Shown: one piece after another, positions 17,579-60,164 of the stretch | Layout: every line of letters starts with the position of its first letter | How positions within the stretch are numbered: the first letter of the stretch is position 1 | Assembly (NCBI GenBank): GCA_023957155.1 | Contig: JAMLHK010000012.1 | Span: 106,273-170,272 of the forward strand | Source of the DNA: Chitinophagaceae bacterium | GTDB lineage: Bacteria > Bacteroidota > Bacteroidia > Chitinophagales > Chitinophagaceae | DNA: 64,000 bases | Direction: 5' to 3' | Made by a program: the position numbers and the translations under genes | The notes under the pieces: model-generated | Databases searched by the model: none | What the model was told of the DNA's origin: nothing | The model's input: only the letters and a program-made list of their open reading frames with translations

Positions 17579-18907
17579 ATGGAGCAGACAAAAAAATCGA
17601 CGTTCAAACTGCTTTTCTACCTGAAAAAGAACGAACTGAAAAAGAACGGTAACGCACCGGTTATGGCACGTATTACCATTGACGGAACAGCCAAGACTTT
17701 GGGTACAAAGTTAGAAATTAACCCCAATAATTGGGATTTAAAGTACGGAAGAGTTGAGGGCAAAAGTGCAACAGCTTTAAGCATCAACCAAAAACTGGAT
17801 AACATACGTGGGCGTATCGACAAGATTTATGAAGATATGCTGAAGCACGAGGGTTTTGCGACCGCACAGAAAGTGAAACTTTCGTTTTTGGGTGTTGGCG
17901 TAATGGATGATGCCATATTGAAACTTTTCAAGGTTCAAAACGATGAGTTTGAAAATATGGTAGCAAAGGGCAAACGCACACAAGGCACTTATAATAAATA
18001 TATCACGGTTTACAATCATCTTACTGAATTTATAAGCGAACGATACCACAGGGATGATATGGCATTTCGGGAATTGACTGCCGATTTTATACGTGAATTT
18101 GATTTTTATCTCCGTATTGATAAAGGGTGTGCACATAATACGGTTTGGATTTACACAATGCCTGTCATAAGTTTAGTTAAGCTGGCGGTCAAGAAAGGTA
18201 TGATACGTGAAAATCCGTTTGAGGATTACGAAATCAGTATGGAAGAAACCGACAGGGGCTACATACTGAAAGAGGACGTAGAAAAGCTGATGATGTGTAA
18301 ACCTCTACACAAAAGATATGAGCTTGTAAAGGATATTTTCATTTTTAGTTGCTTTACCGGATTGTCTTACGTTGATATTAAAAAATTGACAAAGAATAAT
18401 ATTCAGTCTTTCTTTGACGGTCATCAATGGATTATCAGCCGAAGACAGAAATCAGATATTTCTTCCAATGTGAGGTTAATGGAAATACCTAAACGCATCA
18501 TTGAGAAATACCAGGGTACTACCCGAAATGAATTTATCTTTCCTGTTCCTACCAATGTAACCTGCAATAATCACGTTAAGAAACTGATTGAGGAAGCAGA
18601 AATTATTTCCGAACAAAAAGTAACCTTTCACACGGCAAGGCATACTTTCGGAACAATGTTTTTGACCGAGGGTGTACCACTTGAAAGCCTTAGCAAAATG
18701 ATGGGGCATAAAAATATCTCCACTACACAGATTTATGCTAAAATTACCAGCCAAAAGATTAGTAAGGATATGGATTTAGTAACCCCTAAATTTAAAACAA
18801 TGGAAGATGCGTTTCTTATTAAAATGGAACGGGAAGAAGTAGCATTGTTAAATACTCACAACGGAAAGACATCGAAAATTAAAAGTGTCGAAGAAATGAT
18901 GGTTTAA
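17579..18907 (+). CDS. int: Tyrosine recombinase (IntDOT-type integrase)
   Basis: 442 residues in three parts: an arm-type DNA-binding N domain (about 1-90), a SAM-like core-binding domain (about 110-215) and a catalytic domain. Active-site residues are K291 (QKSDISS), H351 and R354 (HTARH), H377 (GHKNI) and Y386 (QIYAKIT). The position of the first catalytic Arg is Ser (S263 in FTGLSYVDIKKL), as in CTnDOT integrase, where the missing Arg goes with tolerance of mismatched crossover sequence. It would integrate and excise the element. A strong terminator follows, so it is a single-gene transcript. Confidence 0.93.
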   Translation: MEQTKKSTFKLLFYLKKNELKKNGNAPVMARITIDGTAKTLGTKLEINPNNWDLKYGRVEGKSATALSINQKLDNIRGRIDKIYEDMLKHEGFATAQKVKLSFLGVGVMDDAILKLFKVQNDEFENMVAKGKRTQGTYNKYITVYNHLTEFISERYHRDDMAFRELTADFIREFDFYLRIDKGCAHNTVWIYTMPVISLVKLAVKKGMIRENPFEDYEISMEETDRGYILKEDVEKLMMCKPLHKRYELVKDIFIFSCFTGLSYVDIKKLTKNNIQSFFDGHQWIISRRQKSDISSNVRLMEIPKRIIEKYQGTTRNEFIFPVPTNVTCNNHVKKLIEEAEIISEQKVTFHTARHTFGTMFLTEGVPLESLSKMMGHKNISTTQIYAKITSQKISKDMDLVTPKFKTMEDAFLIKMEREEVALLNTHNGKTSKIKSVEEMMV

Positions 18908-19564: not shown

Positions 19565-19957
19565 ATGAACATCACAGGAAGACTGACAAGAAATGCGGAA
19601 GTACGCACATTGTCGAACGAAAAACAGGTAGTAAACTTTTCCGTAGCGGTAAACGACAGCTACAAAAACAAGCAGGGCGAATGGGTAGAGCAAACCGCCT
19701 ATTTCGATTGCTCGTATTGGCGAACTCCCAATGTGGCAAAAATGCTCACAAAAGGGTGATTGGTAGAACTATCAGGCAGGGCAAGTGCAAGGGCGTGGAT
19801 AGGCAAAGACGGCGAAGCAAAGGCAGGTCTGAACTTTCACACTTCCGACATCAAACCGCTTGGAGGTAGTAAAAGAGCCGAAACTGCACAGGCTACCACA
19901 GGAACGAACGAGGGCAAGGCTACACCACAGGAAACAACGGATGACCTCCCATTCTAA
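19565..19957 (+). pseudogene. ssb: Single-stranded DNA-binding protein, interrupted by an in-frame TGA
   Basis: The whole 131-codon frame reads as an element-type SSB: OB-fold start MNITGRLTRNAEVRTL, the VVNFSVAVNDSYKNKQGEW core, FDCSYWR, then LVELSGRASARAWIGKDG, and an acidic DDLPF-type tail that recruits partner proteins. One codon, TGA at 19757-19759, splits it after residue 64 (AKMLTKG-stop). There is no frameshift, since both halves are in one frame. The stop is followed directly by TTG, so reinitiation of a C-terminal fragment is possible. If the stop is real, the OB fold is lost. A sequencing error is the alternative. Confidence 0.85.
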
Positions 19958-22172: not shown

Positions 22173-22799
22173 ATGAACGCAAATTTTTTCAATCAGATAC
22201 AGCAGTTGGACTTTACAGGAGTATTGCAACTGAACATTTCAAAAGGGATAGACACCAACCTAATTGTATCAGTGTTGCTCAACAACGAACAATGCGGAGA
22301 TAGTGCCAAAAACCTTATTTCCCCATTAACTTTTAACGCCACACCGCAGGAGTTTGACGAGGGATTTTTTGAGCAGATAACCACGCCTATACAAACCATT
22401 TCGGGCGTAATGGTGGATATGGAAAAATTCCTAAAACAAATGGAAGAAGTCAAAAAGCAGTCCGCAATGGAGAAAGAGAAAGCCGAGAAAGTCAAAAAGG
22501 AAAAAGAAGCCAAAGACAAGAAATACAAAGACGGTATCGCAAAAGTGGACGAACTCGAAAAAGAGGGCAAGTTCCGTGAAGCGTGGATTAAAGTTCCCGA
22601 TATAACCGAGTTCCCCGAAAAAGCGGACGAGATACGCAAACGCAAAACATCATTGTCAGACAAGTTTGCCACACCGAGCCTTTTCGGTGCAATGGAAGAA
22701 GCGACACCCAAACCGCCACAACAAGCGGAAGAAGTTACTGCCGATTATCCCATTGATGAAACATCAACAGGCGAAGACGAGGAAGAAACAAATTATTAA
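22173..22799 (+). CDS. PRTRC system protein E
   Basis: 208 residues. The N-terminal part (FNQIQQLDFTGVLQLNISKG to FDEGFFEQI) matches the PRTRC E family. A Lys/Glu-rich coiled coil follows (about 85-140, built on repeated KEK and EKV steps), then a Pro/Glu-rich acidic tail (EEVTADYPIDETS). The role is unknown. In PRTRC cassettes it always lies beside the C, B and ThiF genes, so it may be a scaffold or substrate of the conjugation system (inference). Confidence 0.75.
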   Translation: MNANFFNQIQQLDFTGVLQLNISKGIDTNLIVSVLLNNEQCGDSAKNLISPLTFNATPQEFDEGFFEQITTPIQTISGVMVDMEKFLKQMEEVKKQSAMEKEKAEKVKKEKEAKDKKYKDGIAKVDELEKEGKFREAWIKVPDITEFPEKADEIRKRKTSLSDKFATPSLFGAMEEATPKPPQQAEEVTADYPIDETSTGEDEEETNY

Positions 22800-22816
22800 C
22801 CATTAAAACGAACATT

Positions 22817-23035
22817 ATGTTATTAGCAACGCAATTACAACGAGTTTTTATACTCAAAGATAAAGGACAGGATGTAAGACTGACCGACCCCGAACCACGT
22901 TGGAGTGTGGAAGCCGTAATGAATTTTTACGCCAATATGTATCCGATACTCACAACGGCAAAAGTATCTGCACCGCAAATCAAGGATGATGCAGTAGAAT
23001 ACAAATTTGAAAGCGTAATGGGAACGAAAGGTTAA
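22817..23035 (+). CDS. PRTRC system protein C, ubiquitin-like (Prok_Ub family)
   Basis: 72 residues with a beta-grasp-like pattern: strand RVFILKDKG, strand QDVRLTDPE, a helix around SVEAVMNFYANMYP, then ITTAKVSAPQ-like and AVEYKFESV strands. The chain ends in a free C-terminal glycine after a small flexible tail (VMGTKG), the shape of a mature ubiquitin-like modifier. This family is described as prokaryotic ubiquitin-like (Prok_Ub) in PRTRC systems. The partner E2-like and E1-like genes follow within 2 kb. No protease is needed to expose the glycine. Conjugation has not been shown. Confidence 0.8.
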   Translation: MLLATQLQRVFILKDKGQDVRLTDPEPRWSVEAVMNFYANMYPILTTAKVSAPQIKDDAVEYKFESVMGTKG

Positions 23036-23052
23036 TCCAAAAATCAAAAACA

Positions 23053-24228
23053 ATGAATTATGAAACCACATATCATATCGGGAACTATCCAATTGCCCGA
23101 ACAGAAACGCCAACGGCAATTGCACCGACAGTTGGGCGAGTTCGCCCAATGGATGAAACGAAGCAAAGACGCAAACGAAGTGCGGAAAGACAAACAGAAA
23201 TCCGTTCCGATAGCAATGTTACCAATGGTTTTCTAAAATCAGCATTCCTGCCTAAACTGCAAACGGAGCAATCCGCACAGGCTTGTAAGAAAACATCAAA
23301 AACGGAGAGGGATTTTTACCAATCCCTTTCCAATCTTGCAGGGCATTTCCATATTGAGCCAATGCAGAGCAAAGATTTTGGTTTTCCCTACAATATGGTT
23401 TTGGCTATGTGGGATATGGACACCCAACTAAAATGCACCAATGCAAATTGGGACAGTTTCCGTTTGATACAGGATAGTAAGAAAACCTATTTTGTAAGTG
23501 AGGAAAAATTCGACACAGGTGCAACGCTGTATTACATTCCCATTGTTCCACTCTTTGAAATGTTGCACGACAAACAGCGGAAGCACACCGCACATTTACT
23601 GATTTCGGTTTGCAGTTATCTGTATCACATTGCCCATATCCCGTATTACAGGCAGGAAGACAGTTATCTCTATTGGCTGTATGAAACGCACAAAGATTGG
23701 GTAGAGTATGACGATGAAACGGAAGAAACAGAAAACTATAAAAGTGAATTGAGAAAAGCGGAAACCATTGGCGACAGGATTGAGCAGAAATTACACAACC
23801 GTATCAATCTGACGGTATTTGAACAGCGTTTGAGCCGTTTCAAAAGCCGTGATACATTCGACAGGGAATGTTGGCAAATGGCGTGTAATGCTTTTGCCTT
23901 ATATACCGAATACCCGATAGGAAGCATTTTCCGCAATGCACCTATACCCGAACAAGACCCCTATGCCGATGATTGCGAAAATGAAGTTATCGGAATGGAA
24001 AAGTATATTTCTTTTATCGCAGACACCAAAGGTTGGTTATATGAAAGCATTAAAGAAAGTATCAACAACGAGTTTAACGAATACGGAGCAATGGAAGAAC
24101 CGACCATTAACAAGCAATTTGACGGAAGCGAAATAACAGAAAACAGCCTTGATTTTGAGAAACGCCTATTTGAATTATTGGACGACCTGTCTTACTTATT
24201 GTATAACTATAAAACCACAGAGCAATGA
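23053..24228 (+). CDS. PRTRC-cassette protein (PRTRC F-like), start uncertain
   Basis: Up to 391 residues, no membrane segments. The body from about residue 75 (ERDFYQSLSNLAGHFHIEP onwards) looks like a folded, acidic cytoplasmic protein and ends LSYLLYNYKTTEQ. By position between C and B it should be the F member of the cassette, but I recognise it only by context. The first 60 residues (TYHIGNYPIARTETPTAI and so on) have odd composition and overlap a second frame that reads more like protein (23060-23236). Other in-frame starts are 23152 and 23362. The stop overlaps the start of the B gene. Confidence 0.6.
   Translation: MNYETTYHIGNYPIARTETPTAIAPTVGRVRPMDETKQRRKRSAERQTEIRSDSNVTNGFLKSAFLPKLQTEQSAQACKKTSKTERDFYQSLSNLAGHFHIEPMQSKDFGFPYNMVLAMWDMDTQLKCTNANWDSFRLIQDSKKTYFVSEEKFDTGATLYYIPIVPLFEMLHDKQRKHTAHLLISVCSYLYHIAHIPYYRQEDSYLYWLYETHKDWVEYDDETEETENYKSELRKAETIGDRIEQKLHNRINLTVFEQRLSRFKSRDTFDRECWQMACNAFALYTEYPIGSIFRNAPIPEQDPYADDCENEVIGMEKYISFIADTKGWLYESIKESINNEFNEYGAMEEPTINKQFDGSEITENSLDFEKRLFELLDDLSYLLYNYKTTEQ
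23060..23236 (+). CDS. Possible small protein overlapping the PRTRC F frame
   Basis: A 58-codon frame opened by ATG at 23060, one base out of phase with the longer gene and closed by TAA at 23234-23236. It starts MKPHIISGTIQLPEQKR, continues with a basic amphipathic helix (QLHRQLGEFAQWMKRSKDANE) and ends PIAMLPMVF. Its residue mix looks more natural than that of the other frame over the same bases. It may be a real small gene, or the original N terminus of the neighbour before a frameshift. Confidence 0.4.
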   Translation: MKPHIISGTIQLPEQKRQRQLHRQLGEFAQWMKRSKDANEVRKDKQKSVPIAMLPMVF

Positions 24229-24944
24229 ACAACGCAATCAACATAACCGAGAACTTCGGGACATTATACCACCCAAAATCCGCTTTGGTTTTCTATGAAG
24301 CCAAAGGCGAAGAAAGAAGAATGTATGTGGAGCATTTTGATATGGACAAGAACGGCAACCCAATCAATGCACACCCATTGACCGTAAGGGAAGCCGAAGT
24401 ATTGGCTAAGTCTTTACAGACCGATGAAGAAAAGAGCAAAGCATTTTTGAAGCCAAAGGGAATTTTTCCGACCAACATTCTGCACATCAATCCGAGTGAA
24501 ACAGGCACGGTGCTTTGGCATACCAAAGCACAGCAAAGGCAACTCTATTTTGTGGACAGTCTGGGCATACCCAACGGTAAGGCACAAACACCGCCAATAC
24601 TTTGGTTAGCGAGTAAAAGAGGACTTGTGGTCTTTGCCCTTGCAACGGACAAAAGACCGACAGAGAAAACGCCTTTGCATTACGCCCCGTTTTTCAACAT
24701 CTACGAAAAAGGCAATGTATGTATGGGAACGGTAAGCATTGACATCAAAAATTCCGCTTCGGTGGAAGAATTTACACAGGCTTGGGAACACTATTTTTTC
24801 AATTCCTATTTCAGCCATTCATTGTGCGAAAACTTGACAAAAAAGAACATTGTAAACCTTTGGAAAGACCTTATCAATACAGATAAACCCTTTCCAAAAG
24901 AAGCATTGAAAAAGAATAATAAAACCCTTAAAAATCTATTGTGA
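24225..24944 (+). CDS. PRTRC system protein B, E2-like (Prok-E2_D family)
   Basis: 239 residues with an E2 (ubiquitin-conjugating-like) layout in the second half. The segment HYAPFFNIYEKGNVCMGTV (152-170) places a cysteine (C166) in a context very like the catalytic region of eukaryotic E2s (HPN...G-x-V-C-L). C166 is the candidate thioester cysteine. The N-terminal half (YHPKSALVFYE, PLTVREAEVL) is PRTRC-B specific. The start overlaps the preceding stop (ATGA), and the following ThiF gene overlaps this stop, giving tight translational coupling of the F, B and ThiF genes. Confidence 0.8.
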   Translation: MNNAINITENFGTLYHPKSALVFYEAKGEERRMYVEHFDMDKNGNPINAHPLTVREAEVLAKSLQTDEEKSKAFLKPKGIFPTNILHINPSETGTVLWHTKAQQRQLYFVDSLGIPNGKAQTPPILWLASKRGLVVFALATDKRPTEKTPLHYAPFFNIYEKGNVCMGTVSIDIKNSASVEEFTQAWEHYFFNSYFSHSLCENLTKKNIVNLWKDLINTDKPFPKEALKKNNKTLKNLL

Positions 24945-25750
24945 TGAATACGGAAAAAACAGCAGTCCATTTTACGGACAACTATTTGATAAGTCCTACC
25001 AACCCGATTTCGGTAAACCTTATCGGAGCAGGTGGCACAGGCTCAAAAGCATTGACTGCCTTGTTAGAGATTAACGAGAGCTTGATAGCTTTAGGACACG
25101 CAGGTTTGTCCGTAAGGTTGTGGGATGATGATATAATCACAAGTGCCAATTTAGGCAGACAGCGTTTTTTTGAAAGTGAAACAGGATTGTATAAATCCGT
25201 TGCGTTAATCAATCGTGTAAACCGTTGTATCGGCACAAATTGGAAAGCCGAAAACAGAAAGTTTGAAAAGGACAGTTTCGGACGAATACCCGAAGAAGCA
25301 CAGGCAACCATTACCATTACTTGCGTTGATAATGTAAAGGCGAGGTTTGGCGTTGCTGAAATACTGAATATATTGGGCAACCGCAGAAATTACCGAGATA
25401 CGCCAAAGTATTGGTTGGATTTTGGTAACAGCCAACATACAGGGCAAGTCTTACTATCTACAATAGGAACGATTAAACAGCCCAATTCGGAAAAATACGA
25501 AACTGTGGCAAGCCTGCCATTTGTTACGGAAGAATTTGGGGAATTGCTGAAACAATCCGAAGAATTGGACAATACGCCAAGTTGCTCATTGGCTGAAGCA
25601 TTGCAAAAGCAGGATTTGTTTATCAATGCTTCATTGGCTCAAATGGGTTGTGATTTGCTTTGGGGTTTGTTCCGTTACGGAATGACCGAATACAGGGGAT
25701 TTTTTCACAACTTGAAAGACTTCCGCACCCACCCGATAAAAGTCGCCTGA
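24944..25750 (+). CDS. PRTRC system ThiF/E1-like adenylyltransferase
   Basis: 268 residues from ATG at 24944 (a GTG at 24941 is in frame too). E1/ThiF signatures are the nucleotide loop GAGGTGS (28-34), the acidic WDDDIITSANLGRQRFF block (60-76) with the Arg and Gln used in adenylation, and TCVDN (126-130). A cysteine in TPSCSLAEAL (C214) is a candidate for the thioester or acceptor site. It would activate the C-terminal glycine of the Ubl encoded at 22817 and pass it to the E2-like protein. Sequence supports the chemistry, but the target is unknown. It is the last gene before a bidirectional terminator. Confidence 0.88.
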   Translation: MNTEKTAVHFTDNYLISPTNPISVNLIGAGGTGSKALTALLEINESLIALGHAGLSVRLWDDDIITSANLGRQRFFESETGLYKSVALINRVNRCIGTNWKAENRKFEKDSFGRIPEEAQATITITCVDNVKARFGVAEILNILGNRRNYRDTPKYWLDFGNSQHTGQVLLSTIGTIKQPNSEKYETVASLPFVTEEFGELLKQSEELDNTPSCSLAEALQKQDLFINASLAQMGCDLLWGLFRYGMTEYRGFFHNLKDFRTHPIKVA

Positions 25751-45835: not shown

Positions 45836-46675
45836 ATGAACAATAACGAAGAAATCAAAGAAATGGTAAGGCAGAAATACAGCGAAATAGCCTTACAGGA
45901 CAAAGACACCAACGCTTCATCCTGTTGCGGTGCAGGCGGTTGCAGTACAGAAGTCTATAACATTATGAGCGAAGATTACAACGAACTTAACGGTTACAAT
46001 CCCGATGCCGATTTAGGTTTAGGATGCGGTTTGCCTACACAGTTTGCAAAAATCAAAAAAGGCGATACCGTTATTGACTTAGGCAGCGGAGCCGGTAACG
46101 ATTGCTTTATAGCCAGAGCCGAAACAGGCGAAACCGGCAGAGTAATTGGCATTGACTTTACCGAAGCAATGATTGACAAAGCCCGTACCAATGCAGAAAA
46201 ATTAGGGTTTAAAAATGTAGAGTTTCGGCAGGGAGATATTGAGAAAATGCCCGTTACCGCTAATGTGGCAGATGTAGTGGTAAGTAATTGCGTATTAAAT
46301 CTTGTACCGGATAAGCAAGCGGTTTTTGCGGAAATATTCAGAGTATTAAAACCCGGCGGACATTTCAGCATTTCAGATATTGTCGTTACCGGAACATTGC
46401 CCGAACAAATAAAAACAGCAGCAGAAATGTATGCAGGATGCGTAGCAGGAGCAATAGATAAAGACGAATATATAAACCACATTACACAGGCAGGATTTAA
46501 CAACGTAACCATCCAGAAAGACAAACCCATTATTGTACCCGATGATATTTTAAAAAACTATCTGAACGATGAAGAAATAGCACTTTACAAATCCAATGCT
46601 ACTATCATTCGCAGTATAACCGTATATGCCGAAAAACCGGAGAGCTGTTGTACACCTAATTCGGGATGTTGCTAA
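45836..46675 (+). CDS. arsM: Arsenite S-adenosylmethionine methyltransferase ArsM
   Basis: 279 residues. SAM-binding motif DLGSGAGND (81-89) and IGIDFTEAM. Three cysteines at the conserved places C64 (GLGCGL), C152 (VSNCVLN) and C202 (YAGCVAG) match the As(III)-binding trio of ArsM, and the 50-residue gap between the last two equals that of the Cyanidioschyzon enzyme. An N-terminal SSCCGAGGC and a C-terminal SCCTPNSGCC add cysteine-rich ends. It methylates As(III) to volatile or less toxic forms. It is the second gene of the ars operon. Confidence 0.92.
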   Translation: MNNNEEIKEMVRQKYSEIALQDKDTNASSCCGAGGCSTEVYNIMSEDYNELNGYNPDADLGLGCGLPTQFAKIKKGDTVIDLGSGAGNDCFIARAETGETGRVIGIDFTEAMIDKARTNAEKLGFKNVEFRQGDIEKMPVTANVADVVVSNCVLNLVPDKQAVFAEIFRVLKPGGHFSISDIVVTGTLPEQIKTAAEMYAGCVAGAIDKDEYINHITQAGFNNVTIQKDKPIIVPDDILKNYLNDEEIALYKSNATIIRSITVYAEKPESCCTPNSGCC

Positions 46676-46694
46676 ACACTAAAACACAATCAAA

Positions 46695-47306
46695 ATGTAT
46701 AAGAATTTAGTTGAAACAATAAGCAAAGTTGTCAACTTCCAGAATATCAGTGAAGAACGTAAAACCATATTACAACCGCTGATAGATTTTGTACAGCAAA
46801 AAACAGACAATAAGCTGGAAATAAATATCAATTTCATTTGTACCCATAATTCCCGTAGAAGCCATTTATCACAGGTTTGGGCACAGGTAGCAGCATATTA
46901 TACAATACCGGATGTACATTGCTATTCGGGCGGTACAGAAGAAACGGCACTATTTCCGAAAGTGGCAGAAACATTGACTAATCAGGGTTTTAGCATCTTC
47001 AAAATTGCAGATACTAATAATCCTGTATACGCCATAAAGTACAGCGATAATGCTTTGCCTGTAATTGGTTTTTCCAAAAAATACGATAGCCCTTTCAACC
47101 CCGTATCGGCGTTTGCCGCTATTATGACCTGTTCGCAGGCAGACGGCGGATGCCCTTTTATTGCAGGAGCAGAAAAAAGAATACCTGTCACATTTGAAGA
47201 CCCTAAAAGCTCAGACGGTACACCGGAGCAATCAAAAGTATATGCAGAAAGAAGTTTGCAGATAGCTACCGAAATGTTTTATGTCTTTTCAGAAGTCAGT
47301 CAATAG
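46695..47306 (+). CDS. Low-molecular-weight phosphatase-like protein, possible arsenate reductase
   Basis: 203 residues with the phosphatase loop C-x5-R as CTHNSRR (C49, R55) after strand NINFI. It is the LMW-PTP/ArsC fold common after arsM in Bacteroidota. A second cysteine-containing segment (IMTCSQADGGCPF) may supply the resolving residues used in thioredoxin-type arsenate reduction. Arsenate reduction is inferred from context. An anti-protein-phosphotyrosine activity cannot be excluded. No Acr3/ArsB pump follows. Confidence 0.75.
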   Translation: MYKNLVETISKVVNFQNISEERKTILQPLIDFVQQKTDNKLEININFICTHNSRRSHLSQVWAQVAAYYTIPDVHCYSGGTEETALFPKVAETLTNQGFSIFKIADTNNPVYAIKYSDNALPVIGFSKKYDSPFNPVSAFAAIMTCSQADGGCPFIAGAEKRIPVTFEDPKSSDGTPEQSKVYAERSLQIATEMFYVFSEVSQ

Positions 47307-47375
47307 AGCTCCAATTAATTTTATTTTGAACAATTTCAAATAACACACTTATACCAAACACGTTACAATTTTAAT

Positions 47376-47383
47376 TAACTTTG
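47376..47383 (+). promoter_or_regulatory. Perfect -7 element abutting the GTG start
   Basis: TAACTTTG matches TAnnTTTG exactly. It ends 5 bases before the GTG at 47389, so the transcript would begin within a base or two of the start codon. No TTTG is found at the usual distance upstream. Confidence 0.4.
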
Positions 47384-47388
47384 CCTCA

Positions 47389-47784
47389 GTGAAAAAAGCA
47401 CTCGCCATATTGTTTTTGGTTACTTATACGTTTTCAACAACTGAATTGTACCAGTTGCTGAAATTGCCCGTATTGGTAGAGCACTTTTTTGAGCATAAAG
47501 CCAAAAATTCCGAAATGTCGTTTTGGGATTTTATGGTGCTTCATTACGACGGCAACCACCTGGAAAACCATCCGCACGATGACGATTATGAGCAAGACCA
47601 GAAGTTGCCTTTTATGGCACACACCAATGTGCCGAGCTACTGTTTTGTACATACACCGCCTTTCCGGTTCGAAATAAAAAATAAACTTTACCAATGTCCG
47701 AAGCAGAAAATGCCGGCATTTGACGAAAATTATACAGCTAACGACTTCCTTTCTTCTATCTGGCAGCCTCCCAAATCCTGTTAA
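47389..47784 (+). CDS. Exported His/Asp-rich protein of unknown function
   Basis: 131 residues from a GTG start, with an N-terminal hydrophobic segment (KKALAILFLVTYTFST). The middle is rich in His, Asp and Glu (HYDGNHLENHPHDDDYEQDQ), a metal-binding look, and cysteines lie in YQCPKQK and the terminal KSC. It stands upstream of the CusA-like operon. Small His-rich periplasmic proteins in this place may bind the exported metal (inference). Confidence 0.6.
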   Translation: MKKALAILFLVTYTFSTTELYQLLKLPVLVEHFFEHKAKNSEMSFWDFMVLHYDGNHLENHPHDDDYEQDQKLPFMAHTNVPSYCFVHTPPFRFEIKNKLYQCPKQKMPAFDENYTANDFLSSIWQPPKSC

Positions 47785-47970
47785 TTTTTTTGGATTGATT
47801 GAATTGAATTTGCTTTTGCACGGGCATCAGCTATTTCCCCTATAGGAAACAGAGATGCTTTGCAGAGAGATACGTTCTGTTCAACCCGCTATGCTTTTCA
47901 GGCGGCACGGTAAGACCGTGTTGTACCTGTAATTCATTTATTCCATGAATATTAACAGAATATAATAATT

Positions 47971-50900
47971 ATGTTACATAAAATCATTGAGTTTTCCATA
48001 CGGAATAAACTCATTATCGGGCTGTTTACCTTAGCCCTGGCCGGCTTTGGAATTTACGAAGCCACCAAACTTCCCATTGATGCCCAACCCGATATTACCA
48101 ACAACCAGGTGCAGGTTATTACGATAGCCCCTTCGCTGGGAGCGACTGACATTGAGCGGTTAGTTACTTTTCCCATTGAGCAGGCAAACAGCAATATCAA
48201 CGGCATTACCGAAATCAGGAGTTTTTCCCGTTTTGGTTTGTCATTAGTTACCATTGTTTTTGATGACAATACCGATGTCTATTGGGCAAGGCAGCAGGTG
48301 GCGGAGCGTCTGCAAAACGTTCGGAGCGAAATTCCCGAAGGCGTGGGAACGCCCGAGCTGGGACCCATCTCTACGGGGCTGGGCGAAATTTACCAATACA
48401 TGGTACGCCCCGAAAAAGGCTACGAAAATAAATACGATGCCACCGAATTACGAACCATACAGGATTGGATTGTCCGCAGGCAGTTGCTGGGCGTAAAAGG
48501 CGTGGCAGAAGTCAGCAGTTTTGGAGGAAAGCTGAAACAGTATGAGATAGCCGTCAACTCCAACAAGCTGCAATCGCTCAACCTCACGATTAACGATGTC
48601 TTTGCCGCATTGGAAAACAACAACCAGAATACCGGCGGTGCGTATATCGAAAAAGGGCCAACGGTACTGTATATCCGAAGTGAGGGATTAATAGGCAATA
48701 AGGAAGATATCGAAACCATTTCGGTTACTTCTACTTCAGACGGTATCCCTGTATTGCTGAAAGACGTTGCTGAAGTAAAAACCGGACACGCTACCCGTTA
48801 TGGAGCAATGACCTACAATGATGAGGGCGAGGTATCGGGAGCTGTGGTAATGATGCTGAAAGGAGCCAACAGCAATGAGGTTATCAAAAACGTGAAAGAG
48901 CGGATTAAAACCATACAGAAGACCTTGCCCGAAGGCGTGGTCTTAGAGCCGTTTTTAGACCGTACCAAAATGGTCAATAACGCCATCGGCACCATTGAAA
49001 AAAACCTTGCCGAAGGTGCGTTGATTGTCGTATTCGTGCTGGTGTTGTTTCTCGGAAATTTTAGGGCAGGTTTGCTGGTGGCTTCCGTTATTCCGCTGTC
49101 CATGCTTTTCGCTATCATTATGATGAATTTATTTGGCGTAAGCGGCAACCTGATGAGCCTCGGAGCATTGGATTTCGGGCTGATTGTGGACGGAGCCGTC
49201 ATCATCGTTGAAGCAGTGCTGCACAGGCTGCATCACGGCAAAAAGTTCGGAGCTGTTAGCAGTGTTTCACAAAAAGAAATGGACAGCGAGGTAGGCTCGT
49301 CCGCTTCCAAAATGGTCAGCAGTGCCGTATTCGGGCAAATCATCATTCTCATTGTTTACCTGCCCATTTTCACACTGGAAGGCATTGAGGGAAAAATGTT
49401 CCGGCCAATGGCACAAACCGTTGCTTTCGCACTGATTGGGGCATTCATCCTCTCCCTCACCTATATACCGATGATGAGCTCGCTGGTTTTGAGTAAGAAA
49501 ACAAAGCATAAGCCCAACTTTTCCGATAAGATGATGCGGCGTTTGGAAAAGCTGCACCATTTTACGCTCCAAAGCGTATTGCAATTCCCCAAAATGGTGA
49601 TTGCTGTCGTGGTTGCTTTATTTATGATTGCCGTATTTATTCTTTCGCGATTGGGCGGCGAATTTATTCCCGCATTGGAGGAAGGCGATTTTGCGGTAGA
49701 CACAAGGGTTTTAACAGGAAGCAACCTGCAAACCACCATTGATTATACTCAAAAAGCTGCCCATATCCTGAAATCGCAATACCCCGAAGTAGAAAAAGTA
49801 GTAACCAAAATCGGCAGTGGTGAAGTGCCCACCGACCCGATGCCGATGGAAGCCAGCGATATGATGGTGATACTGAAAGATAAAAAGGAATGGACATCCG
49901 CCAAAACCTTTAATGAGCTTGCCGAAAAAATGGGTAAATCCTTAGAAGCCGTTCCGGGCATTAGTACAGGCTTTCAGTTTCCCGTACAAATGCGTTTCAA
50001 CGAGCTGATGACCGGAGCCAGACAGGATGTGGTCTGCAAAATTTTCGGAGAAGATTTGGACAGCCTGTCTGATTACGCCGGCCGTTTTGGCGACATCATC
50101 AAAACGGTAAAAGGAGCACAGGATGTATATATCGAACCCATTACCGGAATGCCGCAGGTTATTATAAAGTATAACCGGGCAGGTATTGCACAATACCGTC
50201 TGAATATTGCTGCAATCAACAAAGCGGTAAACACGGCATTTGCAGGGCAAAGCACCGGAAAAGTATATGAAGGCGAGAAACGGTTTGATTTGGTGGTTCG
50301 TTTAGATGAAAATCAACGGGAAAGGCTGGAAGATATTCGCAACCTGCTCATTCCCCTCGCCAACGGCAACCAGATACCCTTATACCAGTTAGCCGATGTT
50401 TCGATACAAAACGGTCCGGCACAAATCCAGCGGGAAGATGCCAAAAGAAGAATTGTGGTTGGTTTTAACGTTCGTGGCCGGGATGTGCAAAGTATAGTGA
50501 ACGAATTGCAGGGCAAAGCCGAAAAGCAACTGAAATTGTCTCCCGGATATTATGTTACTTACGGAGGAGCGTTTGAAAACCTCAACAAAGCGAAAGACCG
50601 CCTGATGATAGCCGTGCCCGTATCGCTGGTGCTGATTTTTTTGTTGCTGTATTTCGCCTTTCACTCCGTAAAGCAAAGCCTGCTGATATACAGTGCCATT
50701 CCGCTTTCCGCAATCGGCGGCATATTTTTTCTGGCATTAAGAGGAATGCCGTTCAGCATCAGTGCCGGAGTGGGTTTCATTGCTCTGTTCGGAGTGGCGG
50801 TATTGAACGGAATTGTGCTCATTGCCGAATATAACCGTTTACGGCAGTCGGGAGAAAACAGCCTTACCCATATTGTGCTCAAAGGAACCCATACAAGGCT

Positions 50901-52293
50901 TCGCCCGGTGCTGATGACGGCTTTTGTAGCTTCGCTGGGCTTTTTGCCAATGGCGGTCAGCAACGGAGCCGGAGCAGAAGTGCAAAGACCTTTGGCAACC
51001 GTAGTGATTGGCGGGCTGATGATAGCCACATTCCTGACGCTTTTTGTATTGCCTGTACTGTACATTCTTTTTGATAAAATGGACTTTTTAAAGTTGAAAC
51101 CGGGTAAAAAAAGTGCAGCCGTTATGGTCTTCCTTTTGATGAATGTTTCGGCATTTGCCCAAAACATTACGTTAAATGATGCCGTGGAAATGGCGGTTAA
51201 AAACAACCTGTCTGCAAAGAGCAAAACCCTGTTGGCAGAATACTATGAAAAACGTATGGCAACGGGAACCAATATACCGCAAATGGCGGTTACCTCTGAA
51301 TTTGGACAAATAAACAGTGCTACAACGGACAACCGGTTCGGCATATCGCAATCCGTTAATTTCCCTACAGTGTACAGCAACCAGAAAAAGCTCCTGAAAG
51401 AAGAATGGAACGCTGCTGTTATTGTCGTTAATCTCAATAAGATTGAAATCCGGAAAACTGTTACCGGACTGTTTTACCATATTCTGGTATTGCGGGAAAA
51501 AGAAAAAGTACTGAACCGGTCGGATGGAATGTATGCGGGGTTCCTCGAAAAGGCAAATCTCCGTTTTGAAAAAGGAGCCAGCAACCTGCTCGAAAAAACA
51601 GCAGCCGAACTGCAACGGGAAAATATTGCCATTCAGTTAAAATCGTTGGCAAACGAAATAGAGCTGGCTAAAATACAAATGCAGTTATTGCTCAATACCG
51701 GAATACGGTATGAGCCTGTTTCCGATAATATCGTTATGGAAGCGGATTTGCACGATATAAGAATGGATTTGAACAGCCATCCGGCAATACAATTATCGGC
51801 TCAGGAAATTGAAAAAGCCAAAGCCGGTGTGAAGCTCGAAAAATCGAAGCTGCTGCCCAACCTGTCCGTTGGTTATTTCAACCAGAGTTTCAAAGACCTG
51901 AACAATAACCGTTTCAGCTCGGTAGAAGTCGGCGTAGGTATCCCTGTTTTTCACAAAGCACAAAAGGCACAAATCAAAGCCGAGGAACAAAAAATACGGT
52001 TTACGGAAAATGAGCTGGCATACCAGAAAGCACAGTGGCAGAACGGTTATGAGGCAGCAGCACAGCAGCTGCAGGCACAGCAGGAGATGGTGGCAACTTA
52101 CCGGCAAAAGCAATTGCCACGGGCAGAGCAGGTGTTTAAAACCGCTCAGGAACAGTTTGCTGCCGGCGAAATCAATTACCTCGACTGGGTAATGCTGAAT
52201 AATCAGGCCATTCAAATCCAGAGCGATTATTACAATGCCGTTATGCAGCTTAACCAGAGCATTATCAATATTCAATACTTCATTTCAAAATAG
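47971..52293 (+). CDS. CusA/CzcA-type heavy-metal RND pump fused to a TolC-like outer-membrane protein
   Basis: 1440 residues. The first about 1035 form an RND heavy-metal exporter (HME family): 12 membrane segments, the proton-relay region GALDFGLIVDGAVIIVEA, and the ends typical of CusA/CzcA. From about 1045 a second hydrophobic stretch (KKSAAVMVFLLMNVSAFAQ), which reads like a signal peptide, leads into an outer-membrane efflux domain (ITLNDAVEMAVKNNLSAKSKTLLAEY to the C terminus). Such fusions are known in Bacteroidota. Substrate Cu/Ag or Cd/Zn/Co cannot be told. The adaptor gene follows after 8 bases. Confidence 0.9.
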   Translation: MLHKIIEFSIRNKLIIGLFTLALAGFGIYEATKLPIDAQPDITNNQVQVITIAPSLGATDIERLVTFPIEQANSNINGITEIRSFSRFGLSLVTIVFDDNTDVYWARQQVAERLQNVRSEIPEGVGTPELGPISTGLGEIYQYMVRPEKGYENKYDATELRTIQDWIVRRQLLGVKGVAEVSSFGGKLKQYEIAVNSNKLQSLNLTINDVFAALENNNQNTGGAYIEKGPTVLYIRSEGLIGNKEDIETISVTSTSDGIPVLLKDVAEVKTGHATRYGAMTYNDEGEVSGAVVMMLKGANSNEVIKNVKERIKTIQKTLPEGVVLEPFLDRTKMVNNAIGTIEKNLAEGALIVVFVLVLFLGNFRAGLLVASVIPLSMLFAIIMMNLFGVSGNLMSLGALDFGLIVDGAVIIVEAVLHRLHHGKKFGAVSSVSQKEMDSEVGSSASKMVSSAVFGQIIILIVYLPIFTLEGIEGKMFRPMAQTVAFALIGAFILSLTYIPMMSSLVLSKKTKHKPNFSDKMMRRLEKLHHFTLQSVLQFPKMVIAVVVALFMIAVFILSRLGGEFIPALEEGDFAVDTRVLTGSNLQTTIDYTQKAAHILKSQYPEVEKVVTKIGSGEVPTDPMPMEASDMMVILKDKKEWTSAKTFNELAEKMGKSLEAVPGISTGFQFPVQMRFNELMTGARQDVVCKIFGEDLDSLSDYAGRFGDIIKTVKGAQDVYIEPITGMPQVIIKYNRAGIAQYRLNIAAINKAVNTAFAGQSTGKVYEGEKRFDLVVRLDENQRERLEDIRNLLIPLANGNQIPLYQLADVSIQNGPAQIQREDAKRRIVVGFNVRGRDVQSIVNELQGKAEKQLKLSPGYYVTYGGAFENLNKAKDRLMIAVPVSLVLIFLLLYFAFHSVKQSLLIYSAIPLSAIGGIFFLALRGMPFSISAGVGFIALFGVAVLNGIVLIAEYNRLRQSGENSLTHIVLKGTHTRLRPVLMTAFVASLGFLPMAVSNGAGAEVQRPLATVVIGGLMIATFLTLFVLPVLYILFDKMDFLKLKPGKKSAAVMVFLLMNVSAFAQNITLNDAVEMAVKNNLSAKSKTLLAEYYEKRMATGTNIPQMAVTSEFGQINSATTDNRFGISQSVNFPTVYSNQKKLLKEEWNAAVIVVNLNKIEIRKTVTGLFYHILVLREKEKVLNRSDGMYAGFLEKANLRFEKGASNLLEKTAAELQRENIAIQLKSLANEIELAKIQMQLLLNTGIRYEPVSDNIVMEADLHDIRMDLNSHPAIQLSAQEIEKAKAGVKLEKSKLLPNLSVGYFNQSFKDLNNNRFSSVEVGVGIPVFHKAQKAQIKAEEQKIRFTENELAYQKAQWQNGYEAAAQQLQAQQEMVATYRQKQLPRAEQVFKTAQEQFAAGEINYLDWVMLNNQAIQIQSDYYNAVMQLNQSIINIQYFISK

Positions 52294-52301
52294 AAAAAAC
52301 G

Positions 52302-53432
52302 ATGAAATATATAACAGTCATTTTTGTTTTTATTATCCTTTCAGGATGCGGAAACAAAGAACAAGCAACCACCGCAGCAGCATCGGCGGATGCGGAAAAC
52401 GTCCTTCAGCTTTCGGATGCGCAACTGAAATCATTTGCCCTTTCATCCGTAGGCATACAGGAAAAGAACATTACGCAAACCCTCAAACTCAACGGTAAAG
52501 TTGATGTGCCGCCACAAAATCTGGTGTCGGTAAGCAGTGCATTGGGCGGTTATGTAAAATCAACCCGATTATTGCCCGGAATGCACTTTAAAAAAGGGGA
52601 AGTTATTGCCGTAATGGAAGACAACCAGTTTATCCAGCTGCAGCAGGATTACCTTACGGCAAAAGCACAACTGCAAAATGCGGAAGCGGAATATCTTCGG
52701 CAGAAAGAGCTGAACCAGAGCAAAGCCAGCAGCGACAAAGTGTATCAGCAAGCCAAAGCCGATTATCAGACTTTGCAAATCAGCGGGAAAGCATTGGCGG
52801 AAAAACTGCGTTTAATCCACATCAATCCCGAGCAGGTTTCAGTGAGCAATATTCGCCAGACGGCCAATATTTATGCCCCTTTTAACGGATTTGTAGCACA
52901 TGTTTTTGTCAATGTGGGCAAATACGTTTCGCCATCCGATGTGCTGTTTGAGCTGGTAAACCCCAACGATTTACATCTCAACCTGAAAGTATTTGAAAAG
53001 GACTGGGATAAAATTAAAACCGGTCAGCCACTGCTGGCTTATACAAACACCAATACCGAAAAAAAGTATCGTGGCGAAATTATCCTGATTGGTAAAAATA
53101 TCAGTAGTGACAGAGCTCTTGAAATTCACGCCCATTTTAAAGAAGACGATGGAAAGCTGATACCCGGAATGTATATGAACGCCGAAATAGAAATTCCTGA
53201 AAGCAGGGCTTGGGTACTTCCCGAAGAAAGCGTGGTATCGTTTGAAGGCAAACAATATGTGTTTGAAATACTGGATAAAAACCGGTTTAAAATGATAGCC
53301 ATACAAACAGGCAATACCGGCAACGGCTGGGTAGCCATTATGAATGGTGATGAACTGAAAAGCAAAAATATTGCCCAAAAAGGAGCCTATACCTTACTGA
53401 TGGCATTAAAAAACAAAGCGGAGGAAGAATAA
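52302..53432 (+). CDS. RND periplasmic adaptor (CusB/CzcB-like) lipoprotein
   Basis: 376 residues. Lipobox FIILSGC gives a lipid-anchored membrane-fusion protein. The barrel-sandwich hybrid and hairpin regions are visible (VSVSSALGGYVKSTRLLPGMHFKKGEVIAVMED then long helices LQNAEAEYLRQKELNQSKASSDK, and SNIRQTANIYAPFNGFVAHVFVNVGKYV). It links the pump to the outer membrane part of the fusion. It overlaps no gene, but a tight 8-base gap suggests one operon. Confidence 0.88.
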   Translation: MKYITVIFVFIILSGCGNKEQATTAAASADAENVLQLSDAQLKSFALSSVGIQEKNITQTLKLNGKVDVPPQNLVSVSSALGGYVKSTRLLPGMHFKKGEVIAVMEDNQFIQLQQDYLTAKAQLQNAEAEYLRQKELNQSKASSDKVYQQAKADYQTLQISGKALAEKLRLIHINPEQVSVSNIRQTANIYAPFNGFVAHVFVNVGKYVSPSDVLFELVNPNDLHLNLKVFEKDWDKIKTGQPLLAYTNTNTEKKYRGEIILIGKNISSDRALEIHAHFKEDDGKLIPGMYMNAEIEIPESRAWVLPEESVVSFEGKQYVFEILDKNRFKMIAIQTGNTGNGWVAIMNGDELKSKNIAQKGAYTLLMALKNKAEEE

Positions 53433-53481
53433 ATCCTTTCTCAACAAATGATTATTTTTAAATATTTATATCCAATTACTT

Positions 53482-55986
53482 ATGTCCTATAATATTCCCG
53501 ACCATCTGAAAGGTCTTAATGATAGCGAGGTAGCCGCTTCACGAAAGCAATACGGCTATAACCAGATAGATGCAGTCCACAAAAGTTCCGCATTGGAACT
53601 GCTCCTGAACATACTGAAAGAGCCGATGCTGATATTGCTTTTCGCCATTTCAGTTATTTATCTCATCATAGGCGATTATGGCGAAGCCTTGTTTATGTTT
53701 CTTGCCATCGTGGCGGTTTCCGCTATTTCATTTTATCAGGACAACCGCAGCAAAAAGGCATTGGAGGCGTTGGAAAAGCTGAATGAACCGTTGAGCAAGG
53801 TTATCCGGAATGCACAGGTAGTTGAAATTCCGACCAATGAAATTGTTGTTGGCGACCTCTGCATTACCGAAGAAGGAAAAATGATTAATGCCGATGGCAG
53901 GATTATACACAGCAACGATTTTTCTGTTAATGAAGCTTCCTTAACCGGCGAAAGCTTATCTGTATTCAAAAGCAGCGAAAGCGAAGACCGGAATATTTAT
54001 AGCGGAACCTTAACCGTATCGGGATTAGCCGTTTTTGAAGTAGAGAAAATCGGGAAAGCAACCCGTCTTGGCAAAATCGGTATTTCTATTTCGGAAATAA
54101 AAGAAGAAGCCTCGCCTTTGCAGCTTCAAATCCGCAGGTTTGTAAAAGCAATGGCTATTATAGGTATCGTTATTTTCGGAATGGTATGTGTTTTTAGTTA
54201 TTATCACACAGGAAACTTAACGGACAGCCTGCTCAACGGGCTTACGCTGGCCATGTCTGTTCTTCCCGAAGAAATTCCGGTGGCATTTACCACTTTTATG
54301 GCATTGGGTGCGTGGAAGCTGATGCGTGACGGCATCATCGTCAAACGAAGCAGCATCGTGGAAACCCTGGGAAGCACAACAGTTATCTGCACCGATAAAA
54401 CCGGAACCATTACCGAAAATACGATGCAGCTGAAGCATCTTTACGATTACCGTTCGGATAAGGTTTTCGATGAGAATGATTTTGGCGATGCCGCACTGTC
54501 CACACTGATTGACTATGCAATGTGGAGCAGCGAGCCCGTGCCTTTTGACCCGATGGAAAAAACCCTGCACAAAGTATATGAGCAAACACAATCCGGTGAC
54601 GAGCGGAAACGGTTTCAAATGATACACGAGTATCCGCTGGACGGCAAACCTCCAATGATGACGCACCTTTTTGAAAATGCCGAAAAGCAGCGGATTATTG
54701 CGGCAAAAGGTGCACCGGAAGCTATTCTGAATGTTTCTGTGCTTTCGGAGAACGAAAAAAATAAAATACGGAATATCATTAAAGCATTAGGACAACAGGG
54801 CTTCAGGATTTTGGGCGTAGCCCAATCGCATTTTGAAGGTGATAATTTTCCTGCAAAACAGCAGGATTTCAGGTTTGATTTTCTGGGTTTGACAGTATTC
54901 TACGACCCTCCCAAAAAAGGTATTCAGGAAGTTTTCCGTCATATCTACGATGCCGGAATAAAGGTAAAAGTGATTACCGGTGATAATACCGATACCACCA
55001 AAAGCATAGCCGCACAGGCAGGCATTACCCATACAGCCGAAGCAGTAGAGGGCAAAGACATTATGGCGTATTCGGAAGAGGAGCTTTTGCAGGCAGCCGA
55101 AGAAAAAGTATTGTTCACGCGGATGTTTCCCGATGCCAAGCTGGCAGTAGTGAACGCTTTAAAAAAGAAAGGCGAAGTGGTGGCGATGCTGGGTGACGGC
55201 GTGAATGACGGTCCGGCACTGAAAGCCGCCCATATCGGCGTGGCAATGGGCAACAAGGGAACGGAAATAGCCAAAGCCGCCGCAGCCTTAGTGATTACCA
55301 ATGATGATTTAGGCAAGCTGATTACCGGCATTGCATCCGGCAGAAGGATTTATGCCAACATCAAAAAAGCCGTTCAATACATCATTTCCATTCATATCCC
55401 GATTATCCTCACTGTTTCCCTGCCGTTATTTCTGGGTTGGGTGTTCCCGCAGATATTTACACCGGTGCACGTTATCTTTTTAGAGCTGGTAATGGGGCCT
55501 ACCTGCTCCATAGTGTATGAAAACGAACCGATGGAAAAGAATACGATGCGGCAAAAGCCAAGAAAAATGACAGATACGTTCCTGAACTGGAAAGAGCTTG
55601 GGATAAGTATTGTTCAGGGACTGGCAATAACCGCAGGCGTATTATCCGCATACCAATATACGGTGCAAAACGGAGGAAATGAAGAACAGACAAGGGCAAT
55701 GGTTTTTACTACGTTGATTTTCGCCAATATTTTATTGAGCCTCGTAAACCGTTCCTTCTATTACAGTATGCTGGAAAGTTTTAAGAACAGGAACAGCCTG
55801 TTTGCCGCCGTTACCGGTATTACCCTTATCCTGCTTTTTGCCATATTATATATTGAACCTTTAGCCGGTTTTTTCCGCTTAACCGGATTGAATGGGGCGG
55901 AATTAGGCACGGCGATAGGTATAGCTTCCCTGTCGGTATTGTGGTTTGAAGCATATAAATGGGTGAAACGGATGAAAAAAGTATAA
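53482..55986 (+). CDS. Cation-translocating P-type ATPase
   Basis: 834 residues. N-terminal cation-ATPase domain (PDHLKGLNDSEVAASRKQYG), actuator TGES (LTGESLSVF), the phosphorylation site DKTGT (D305, in VICTDKTGTITEN), VITGDNTDTT and the hinge MLGDGVNDGPAL. Membrane helix 4 has PEEIPV, as in P2-type pumps of bacteria rather than the CPx motif of heavy-metal P1B pumps. It lacks N-terminal metal-binding CxxC. The exported ion is unknown (Ca2+, Mn2+ or other). It starts 49 bases after the adaptor gene and may be co-transcribed. Confidence 0.88.
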   Translation: MSYNIPDHLKGLNDSEVAASRKQYGYNQIDAVHKSSALELLLNILKEPMLILLFAISVIYLIIGDYGEALFMFLAIVAVSAISFYQDNRSKKALEALEKLNEPLSKVIRNAQVVEIPTNEIVVGDLCITEEGKMINADGRIIHSNDFSVNEASLTGESLSVFKSSESEDRNIYSGTLTVSGLAVFEVEKIGKATRLGKIGISISEIKEEASPLQLQIRRFVKAMAIIGIVIFGMVCVFSYYHTGNLTDSLLNGLTLAMSVLPEEIPVAFTTFMALGAWKLMRDGIIVKRSSIVETLGSTTVICTDKTGTITENTMQLKHLYDYRSDKVFDENDFGDAALSTLIDYAMWSSEPVPFDPMEKTLHKVYEQTQSGDERKRFQMIHEYPLDGKPPMMTHLFENAEKQRIIAAKGAPEAILNVSVLSENEKNKIRNIIKALGQQGFRILGVAQSHFEGDNFPAKQQDFRFDFLGLTVFYDPPKKGIQEVFRHIYDAGIKVKVITGDNTDTTKSIAAQAGITHTAEAVEGKDIMAYSEEELLQAAEEKVLFTRMFPDAKLAVVNALKKKGEVVAMLGDGVNDGPALKAAHIGVAMGNKGTEIAKAAAALVITNDDLGKLITGIASGRRIYANIKKAVQYIISIHIPIILTVSLPLFLGWVFPQIFTPVHVIFLELVMGPTCSIVYENEPMEKNTMRQKPRKMTDTFLNWKELGISIVQGLAITAGVLSAYQYTVQNGGNEEQTRAMVFTTLIFANILLSLVNRSFYYSMLESFKNRNSLFAAVTGITLILLFAILYIEPLAGFFRLTGLNGAELGTAIGIASLSVLWFEAYKWVKRMKKV

Positions 55987-56022
55987 TACGACCAGTAAAA
56001 TACTAATATGTAAGGTAAAAAG

Positions 56023-56068
56023 TTTGGTGGGATAGAAAACATCCGTACCTTTGTTAGCGAATACTAAC
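56023..56068 (+). promoter_or_regulatory. Promoter and TetR operator of the efflux operon
   Basis: TTTG (56023-56026), 19 bases, then TACCTTTG (56046-56053) forms a perfect Bacteroidota promoter. GTTAGcgaataCTAAC (56053-56068) is an inverted repeat placed at the transcription start, an ideal site for a TetR repressor encoded 28 bases further on. Confidence 0.7.
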
Positions 56069-56095
56069 TAACTTTTTTAGAGGCAAAAGATTAAT

Positions 56096-56686
56096 ATGGA
56101 AAAGTTTACCGACAGACAGATAGAAATAATGGAAGCCGCAACCGCCCGAATTGATAAATACGGTATTCAAAACCTGACTATCAAAACTTTGGCTTCGGAT
56201 ATTGGCTTATCCGAACCGGCATTATACCGGCATTTTAAAAGCAAAAATGATATTTTGCTTGGCTTGCTCAATTACTTCATAACAGGAATGAAAAACCGCA
56301 TCAGCAACATTCCTGTAAAATCGGATGCAACGGCAGGAGATGAATTGAAAGCTATTTTCCATTCGCAACTCCAAACGTTTACCGATAAACCTGCAATTGT
56401 AAGCGTAATTTTTGCCGAAAGTATTTTTCATTACGATGAGGGATTGACCAAAAAGGTTTCAGAAATAATGGACTTAATGCACCAATATGTCAAAGCAAAC
56501 ATTGAAAAGGGACAAAAAGCAGGACAATACGGTAAACTGATAAATGTTTCCACGCTGACCACTATCATACTTGGCGGTATGCGGTTTACGGTTTTGAAAT
56601 GGAAGCTTTCGGGACATAAATCCAATCTCGTAAAAGACGGGAAAGCCGTATTGGAAGCAATTTTAAAAATGATTGAAAACAAATAA
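56096..56686 (+). CDS. TetR/AcrR-family repressor
   Basis: 196 residues. The N-terminal HTH (LTIKTLASDIGLSEPALYRHFKSKNDILLG) is classical TetR. The C-terminal ligand domain is helical and specific. It heads the operon and would repress it at 56053-56068, lifting on binding of the pumped compound. Confidence 0.88.
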   Translation: MEKFTDRQIEIMEAATARIDKYGIQNLTIKTLASDIGLSEPALYRHFKSKNDILLGLLNYFITGMKNRISNIPVKSDATAGDELKAIFHSQLQTFTDKPAIVSVIFAESIFHYDEGLTKKVSEIMDLMHQYVKANIEKGQKAGQYGKLINVSTLTTIILGGMRFTVLKWKLSGHKSNLVKDGKAVLEAILKMIENK

Positions 56687-56698
56687 ATAATTCAAAAT

Positions 56699-57154: not shown

Positions 57155-57171
57155 TCAAAAATTTTTCAAAA

Positions 57172-57732: not shown

Positions 57733-57773
57733 ATAAACGAAAATGATAAACAATAAAAAAAATTTACCCAATT

Positions 57774-59102: not shown

Positions 59103-59103
59103 G

Positions 59104-60153: not shown

Positions 60154-60164
60154 AATCAGCGAAA

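Follow-up and report, generated by a model that had tools for sequence, protein, structure and literature searches.

The 64,000-nucleotide stretch of DNA analysed here (the window; contig JAMLHK010000012.1 of a Chitinophagaceae bacterium) comes from a Bacteroidota genome of 4.61 Mb, 88% complete, and carries on a conjugative element a compact plus-strand operon at 22173-25750. Its gene order is E, C, F, B and ThiF, with a small open reading frame (ORF), S, nested within F; C resembles ubiquitin, B an E2 enzyme and ThiF an E1 enzyme. The operon is real, conserved and intact-looking, and its type is already known, being row 6d of Iyer et al. 2006 and the PRTRC system of NCBI, B. thetaiotaomicron included (PMC1779556, in the sections used here). 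The original prediction, made from the letters of the window, had described the range as a minimal conjugation cassette of three adjacent genes. The three proteins are as described, but the gene content required correction: the range opens with a fifth gene, PRTRC_E, F (391 amino acids) and the nested S (58 amino acids) lie between C and B, and E, S and F also belong to the cassette. Similarly, both start/stop overlaps proposed for B and ThiF are present (ATGA at 24225-24228 and TGATG at 24942-24946, with B adjoining ThiF directly and no gene between), but the gene that B overlaps is F, not C.

Components of the cassette

The 72-residue C protein ends in VMGTKG, with a free C-terminal Gly, and matches PRTRC_C (TIGR03738) at 61.2 bits against a cut-off of 45.95. 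Its ending is Lys-Gly rather than Gly-Gly, and the last Gly is kept in 176/176 unique aligned sequences. An AlphaFold2 model of C (predicted local distance difference test score, pLDDT, 83.6) has strands and a helix in beta-grasp order, so that C combines a beta-grasp-like fold with a C-terminal Gly; the fold scores are modest, with no Foldseek match at E<=0.001, and a sequence search of solved structures returned two chance-looking matches. The profile matches and the model support C as a ubiquitin-like protein (Ubl).

In B, Cys166 sits in NIYEKGNVCMGTV, and the match to Prok-E2_D (PF14460) is well above its cut-off; PRTRC_B (TIGR03737) scores B at 129.7 bits, slightly below the cut-off of 131.45. 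Both N158 and C166 are invariant among 227 unique relatives, N158 standing ahead of the Cys at the place of the HPN Asn, as expected of a UBC fold. A sequence search of solved structures found no match for B. Its model matches E2 folds over residues about 67-235, and among the 50 fold matches listed all are entries for E2 or ubiquitin E2 variant (UEV) proteins, a CdnG-E2 chain among them, except one with an unclear title. Sequence and model thus support the assignment of B as an E2-like protein.

ThiF (268 amino acids) carries the GAGGTGS, LGRQRFF and VDN motifs noted in the original prediction and matches PRTRC_ThiF (TIGR03736) at 231.1 bits against a cut-off of 144.75. Its adenylation motifs are conserved, and Cys214, present in nearly all unique sequences (Table 1), is a candidate for the catalytic E1 cysteine. 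The PRTRC ThiF profile retrieves Cap2 structures. The family matches and the conserved residues support ThiF as E1-like. A ThiF protein and a beta-grasp protein also form the classic pair of sulfur-carrier pathways, and with ThiF profiles as its nearest known relatives the cassette could be of the ThiS/MoaD kind, ThiF making a thiocarboxylate of C for biosynthesis and B not conjugating. We consider this very unlikely: the cassette includes an E2-like B with Asn158 and Cys166 invariant in 227/227, the last two residues of C are Lys-Gly, not Gly-Gly, no sulfur-metabolism gene lies in the cassette, and Iyer et al. (PMC1779556, same sections) separate this operon type from the sulfur pathways.

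The three genes also travel together, a co-occurrence that the original prediction had proposed to check. Upstream sequence of 3.8 kb or more was available for 239 ThiF loci, and in 224 of these C and B lie on the same strand beside ThiF; the order E-C-(S)-F-B-ThiF recurs, so that the arrangement is more than chance. These relatives were collected from named genomes (the best 80 of 482 relatives, ThiF identity up to 89%), viral contigs (47, then 80 of 283) and plasmids (374 records matched by ThiF). Among 395 genomes sampled from the phylum, 16 contain PRTRC_ThiF above its cut-off; these hold 21 copies in all, of which one has three in-frame stops. PRTRC_C was found in 8 of 58 relatives. Among the 15 ThiF loci lacking C and B alongside, four are cyanobacterial plasmids (L217, L210, L215 and L216), which carry B-, A- and ThiF-like genes and no C by profile; a small upstream gene in these plasmids may hold a more distant modifier. 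Also among the 15 is L050, where no C or B was detected beside the PRTRC ThiF. Another incomplete locus, L129, has ThiF, B and F with no E, C or S detected. Decaying ThiF copies were also seen (G277:C1:1280488-1281267, G375:C8 and G347:C68), the forms of decay being three in-frame stops, a gene in two pieces and a 62-residue remnant with a stop.

Table 1. Features of the cassette and its element (window coordinates)
Feature	Position	Strand	Basis
Tyrosine integrase	17579-18907		Pfam
E (PRTRC_E), opening gene of the cassette	22173..22799	+	PF19556 7.5e-72; TIGR03741 41.9 bits vs cut-off 37.95
C, 72-aa predicted ubiquitin-like modifier, PRTRC_C / Prok_Ub	22817..23035	+	PF14454 1.1e-27; TIGR03738 7.9e-17
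Gly72 codon of C, free C-terminal Gly	23030..23032	+	Gly conserved 176/176
S, ORF of 58 aa within the 5' end of F, in its -1 frame	23060..23236	+	Hidden Markov model (HMM), frame relation, codon periodicity
F, 391-aa ORF; conserved part from about 23233	23053..24228	+	ORF list, conservation downstream of the S stop
B, E2-like, Prok-E2_D	24225..24944	+	PF14460 2.8e-36; E2-fold matches to model
Asn158 codon of B, aligned with the HPN Asn of E2 enzymes	24696..24698	+	227/227 unique sequences
Cys166 codon of B, predicted thioester cysteine	24720..24722	+	227/227 unique sequences
ThiF, E1-like adenylyltransferase; GTG start 24941 also possible	24944..25750	+	TIGR03736 1.2e-68; PF00899 4.5e-09
ATP loop GAGGTGS, ThiF residues 28-34	25025..25045	+	G28, G30, G31, G33 in 225/225
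Cys214 codon of ThiF (PSCS), candidate E1 cysteine	25583..25585	+	222/225 unique sequences

The JAB peptidase and the tail of C

No JAB gene had been seen in the window, and none was recognised beyond it: Prok-JAB (PF14464) had 0 matches in the host genome at its 88% completeness, whereas the same search was positive in 8 of 14 control genomes. PRTRC_A, the JAB peptidase of PRTRC systems, likewise had 0 matches in this genome and in 295 genomes of the class, and was absent from 8 complete plasmid records (Bacteroidota, Pseudomonas, Aeromonas, Aliivibrio, Shewanella, Glaciecola and Deinococcus); as a positive control, the model matched 6/6 plasmids annotated with A. In one of the 8 records without A, that of L205, Prok-JAB matches at another place but below its cut-off (17.1 bits, E 9e-4). 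RadC, encoded by two genes on other contigs of the host genome, was considered as a substitute JAB and judged unlikely from the relevant part of PMC5512222.

Betaproteobacterial, Xanthomonas and sphingomonad plasmids have the order E, C, F, B, A, ThiF, in which A consists of DUF2016 and Prok-JAB, and the PRTRC_A motif H-x-H...S-x-x-D is present in 87/87 unique copies. C extends beyond its GTKG-type Gly end in 72 of the 77 unique loci that have A, and in 0 of the 126 that lack it (Fisher p 2e-49), JAB absence meaning, for most loci, that none was found in the fetched stretch rather than in the whole genome. Complete plasmids gave the same picture. Those with A are tailed in 5/6 cases (L002 +3, L003 +61, L202 +3, L204 0, L206 +5 and L214 +61 residues), and C ends at the Gly in 8/8 of those without A (L205, L207, L208, L211, L212, L213, L004 and L209, the last by eye). 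The C of L205, whose alignment ended early, ends in STNG, and its tail was entered as 0 by eye in the tree control described below. The absence of a JAB from the window thus fits a modifier that is already processed, as the original prediction held.

The link between tail and JAB is weakened by the relationships among the loci. A ThiF tree of 107 rows contains about 4 changes of JAB state and yields 1 independent pair on well-supported branches; with so few independent changes, phylogeny alone could produce much of the association, and no significance is claimed from the tree. The compared sequences are therefore best described as suggestive of tail presence following JAB presence. The association is what would be expected of a JAB that trims the modifier. 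Iyer et al. 2006 (PMC1779556, same sections) had predicted that the JAB both trims and removes the modifier, and the association makes this prediction testable. The same authors stated that wherever the E1 lacked a fused JAB, a separate JAB gene lay next to it, a rule that the present locus set shows not to be general. The tails themselves (L251-L297 and related loci) form several dissimilar classes, with a ..CPLLDEEVAFINALHARYCPQPK-like end in one and ..VLP in another, and the classes look swapped among otherwise similar C proteins.

S and F, overlapping reading frames between C and B

The region between C and B is occupied by two ORFs in different frames. An HMM recognised S between C and the conserved portion of F in 108 of an initial set of 160 loci. 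In 108/108 its frame is -1 to that of F, and the F frame runs on through the S stop. Codon-position variability tracks the S frame until the S stop and the F frame directly after it. Over the last 40 codons of S, amino-acid change is about half that of the F frame, and the F frame behaves there like the unused third frame; S is thus the constrained reading in this part. S had no match in plasmids, no NCBIfam match near cut-off, no Pfam-type name and no match in PHROGs. F, in turn, sits where Iyer 2006 placed a 'novel alpha-helical protein' and has no NCBIfam match at E<=1 and a single Pfam match far under its cut-off; profile comparison with annotated PRTRC_F gave a score of 20.8 (shuffled maximum 17.2) and a probability of 0.8%.

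The frame relation could reflect a programmed -1 frameshift from S, making S and F one protein. The identical relation at the S stop in all 108 pairs, the switch of frame constraint exactly at this stop, and F-frame amino acids over S no better conserved than those of the third frame would all be expected of such an event. However, an F-frame ATG is present in 108/108 loci, the F frame being open from it across the whole of S in 98, and among 95 unique loci this ATG precedes that of S by exactly 7 nucleotides in 78. Synonymous shuffling would be expected to leave the F frame open in 44.6 of 94 unique cores, but it is open in 87 (third frame, 16 observed against 13.8), the loci being related, so that this excess is not an independent count; in the window's own sequence, such openness has a probability of 1.0 under shuffling and is thus uninformative. 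Furthermore, no stimulating RNA fold lies downstream (z 0.14), and a classic slippery heptamer was not seen at the site by eye. Silent sites, tested for S against C, B, F and ThiF, show no more than a slight deficit in S, which indicates that the N-terminal stretch of F over S is open but hardly constrained. The simplest reading of these sequences is that S and F are two overlapping genes with near-simultaneous starts, F having a free N-terminal stretch; the frameshift is less likely than this, and we regard it as unlikely. S would be missed by any reconstruction that expresses the annotated genes alone.

A further reading connects S with the tails of C. The system would exist in two editions: one in which a JAB cuts a Ubl-tail fusion into two proteins, and one in which C and S are encoded separately, with no cutting and one-way tagging, S being equivalent to the released tail and a functional part, not waste. 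The JAB-less edition would then be that of Bacteroidota and of some gammaproteobacterial and Deinococcus plasmids. We hold this reading to be quite doubtful. A C-terminal pattern, chosen post hoc, is shared by 13 of 24 S sequences and 6 of 19 members of one tail class, compared with 23 of 2041 ORF ends, and similarly shaped small ORFs follow C in more distant JAB-less loci as well. However, a profile comparison of S with the tails, from which seven slot ORFs were left out (L208, L236, L170, L172, L174, L175 and L067), scored 7.0, below the shuffled maximum of 8.8, which counts against S as a tail. So does the control count: even where a JAB is present, a small ORF comes after C in 48 of 77 loci, compared with 118 of 126 JAB-less loci. 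The evidence that S is the C tail as a separate gene is thus mixed.

Mechanism, context and known systems

The cassette is probably an E1-E2-Ubl conjugation machine of the PRTRC/Iyer row-6d type, whose modifier is made in its final form and for which no removing enzyme is encoded. Two precedents suggest that it would work like a small pathway of this kind: in type II cyclic oligonucleotide-based antiphage signalling systems (CBASS), Cap2 conjugates a C-terminal Gly through E1 and E2 cysteines (PMC10097602, in the part used here), and the Bil system (BilABCD) comprises a Ubl, an E2, a JAB and an E1, the JAB trimming the modifier (PMC11354881, likewise in part). ThiF would adenylate the free Gly72 of C, C would pass as a thioester from Cys214 of ThiF to Cys166 of B, and B would link C to target amino groups, perhaps with help from F, S or E. 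Since C has no residues after its Gly and PRTRC_A is absent, trimming would not be needed and the element would encode no known remover, so that modification would be one-way unless another protease acts. In the literature searched, mostly open-access and represented by parts of papers such as PMC10434189, PMC7466150 and PMC3826726, no functional test of a PRTRC cassette is reported. Reconstitution would be simplest with the JAB-less form, which has three proteins, no maturation and no encoded removal, and conjugates should for this reason be easy to catch. If the cassette works, ubiquitin-like conjugation would be carried by large plasmids and by conjugative elements that are common in the gut and the environment.

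The element itself was recognised, in agreement with the original prediction, from Pfam matches to an integrase, TraM, TraJ, TraG, a relaxase and a coupling protein around the cassette. SSB and DUF932 genes adjoin the cassette on the element, and ParB, dnaN or SSB genes do so on several plasmids. An SSB-like ORF, counted irrespective of intactness over the Bacteroidota loci, lies near the cassette in 91 of 107 Bacteroidota genome loci, 4 of 20 plasmid-plus-window loci and 1 of 127 viral-contig loci, and a dnaN-like neighbour in 1, 6 and 6 of these, respectively. As raw counts with no background rate, these neighbours are a hint of a role in DNA replication or establishment. In the window, the SSB-like ORF upstream of the cassette (19565-19957) is broken by an in-frame stop at 19757-19759. 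A sliding-clamp gene (DNA polymerase III beta subunit) lies a few kb from the cassette on plasmids L208, L212, L214, L216 and L217. In eukaryotes, PCNA is modified, and the sliding clamp as a possible candidate substrate would be a parallel to this. The downstream part of the element (45836-63254), judged from ORF translations only, contains an arsenite-methyltransferase-like gene, heavy-metal efflux genes (RND and P-type ATPase-like) and regulators.

The same chemistry could instead serve anti-phage or anti-plasmid defence, with proteins of an invader being modified, as in Bil and CBASS type II. The mobile, patchy distribution of the cassette, the same kinds of parts in Bil (Ubl, E2, JAB and E1; PMC11354881, same part) and weak matches of ThiF to PADLOC E1-E2 models (best 5.6e-4) would be in line with defence. 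However, PADLOC gives no match at E<=1 for C, B, E or F, and the SSB, DUF932, ParB and dnaN neighbours, for which no background rate is available, resemble core replication or establishment genes more than a defence island. On balance, a defensive role appears unlikely.

Compared with Bil, the cassette encodes the same kinds of enzymes but differs in architecture: BilA has two Ubl domains, BilD has two adenylation domains (PMC11354881, same part) and BilC is a JAB, whereas C is a single Ubl of 72 amino acids, ThiF is short (268 amino acids) and no JAB is present. With CBASS type II it would share conjugation of a C-terminal Gly through E1 and E2 cysteines (PMC10097602, same part), and the ThiF profile finds Cap2 and the B model a CdnG-E2; however, E1 and E2 are separate proteins rather than the E1-E2 fusion of Cap2, the modified partner would be a small Ubl rather than a cGAS-like enzyme, and there is no JAB such as Cap3. 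The adenylyltransferase and beta-grasp folds recall ThiF/ThiS and MoeB/MoaD, from which the cassette differs by its dedicated E2-like partner and its Lys-Gly end.

The closest likeness is to Iyer row 6d/PRTRC systems (for example pHG1 of Cupriavidus necator, L206), which have E, C, B and ThiF in the same order, a variable gene between C and B, and a location on mobile elements. The window differs from them in lacking the PRTRC_A JAB and a ParB above cut-off, in its unrecognised F, in a C that ends at the Gly, and in the nested S. The best PRTRC_ParB score in the host genome was 99.3 bits, on another contig, against a cut-off of 278.6, compared with 801.7 and 396.7 for the controls L206 and L212. 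The missing PRTRC_A makes a full PRTRC system less likely, not a working likeness to one. We thus place the cassette as a JAB-less relative of PRTRC, whose C, E and ThiF score within their families and whose B lies at the edge. Within the literature searched, the form without PRTRC_A and PRTRC_ParB, and with an F matching no NCBI model, is new; of the new points, the corrected set of genes and the association between the tail of C and the JAB are the strong ones.

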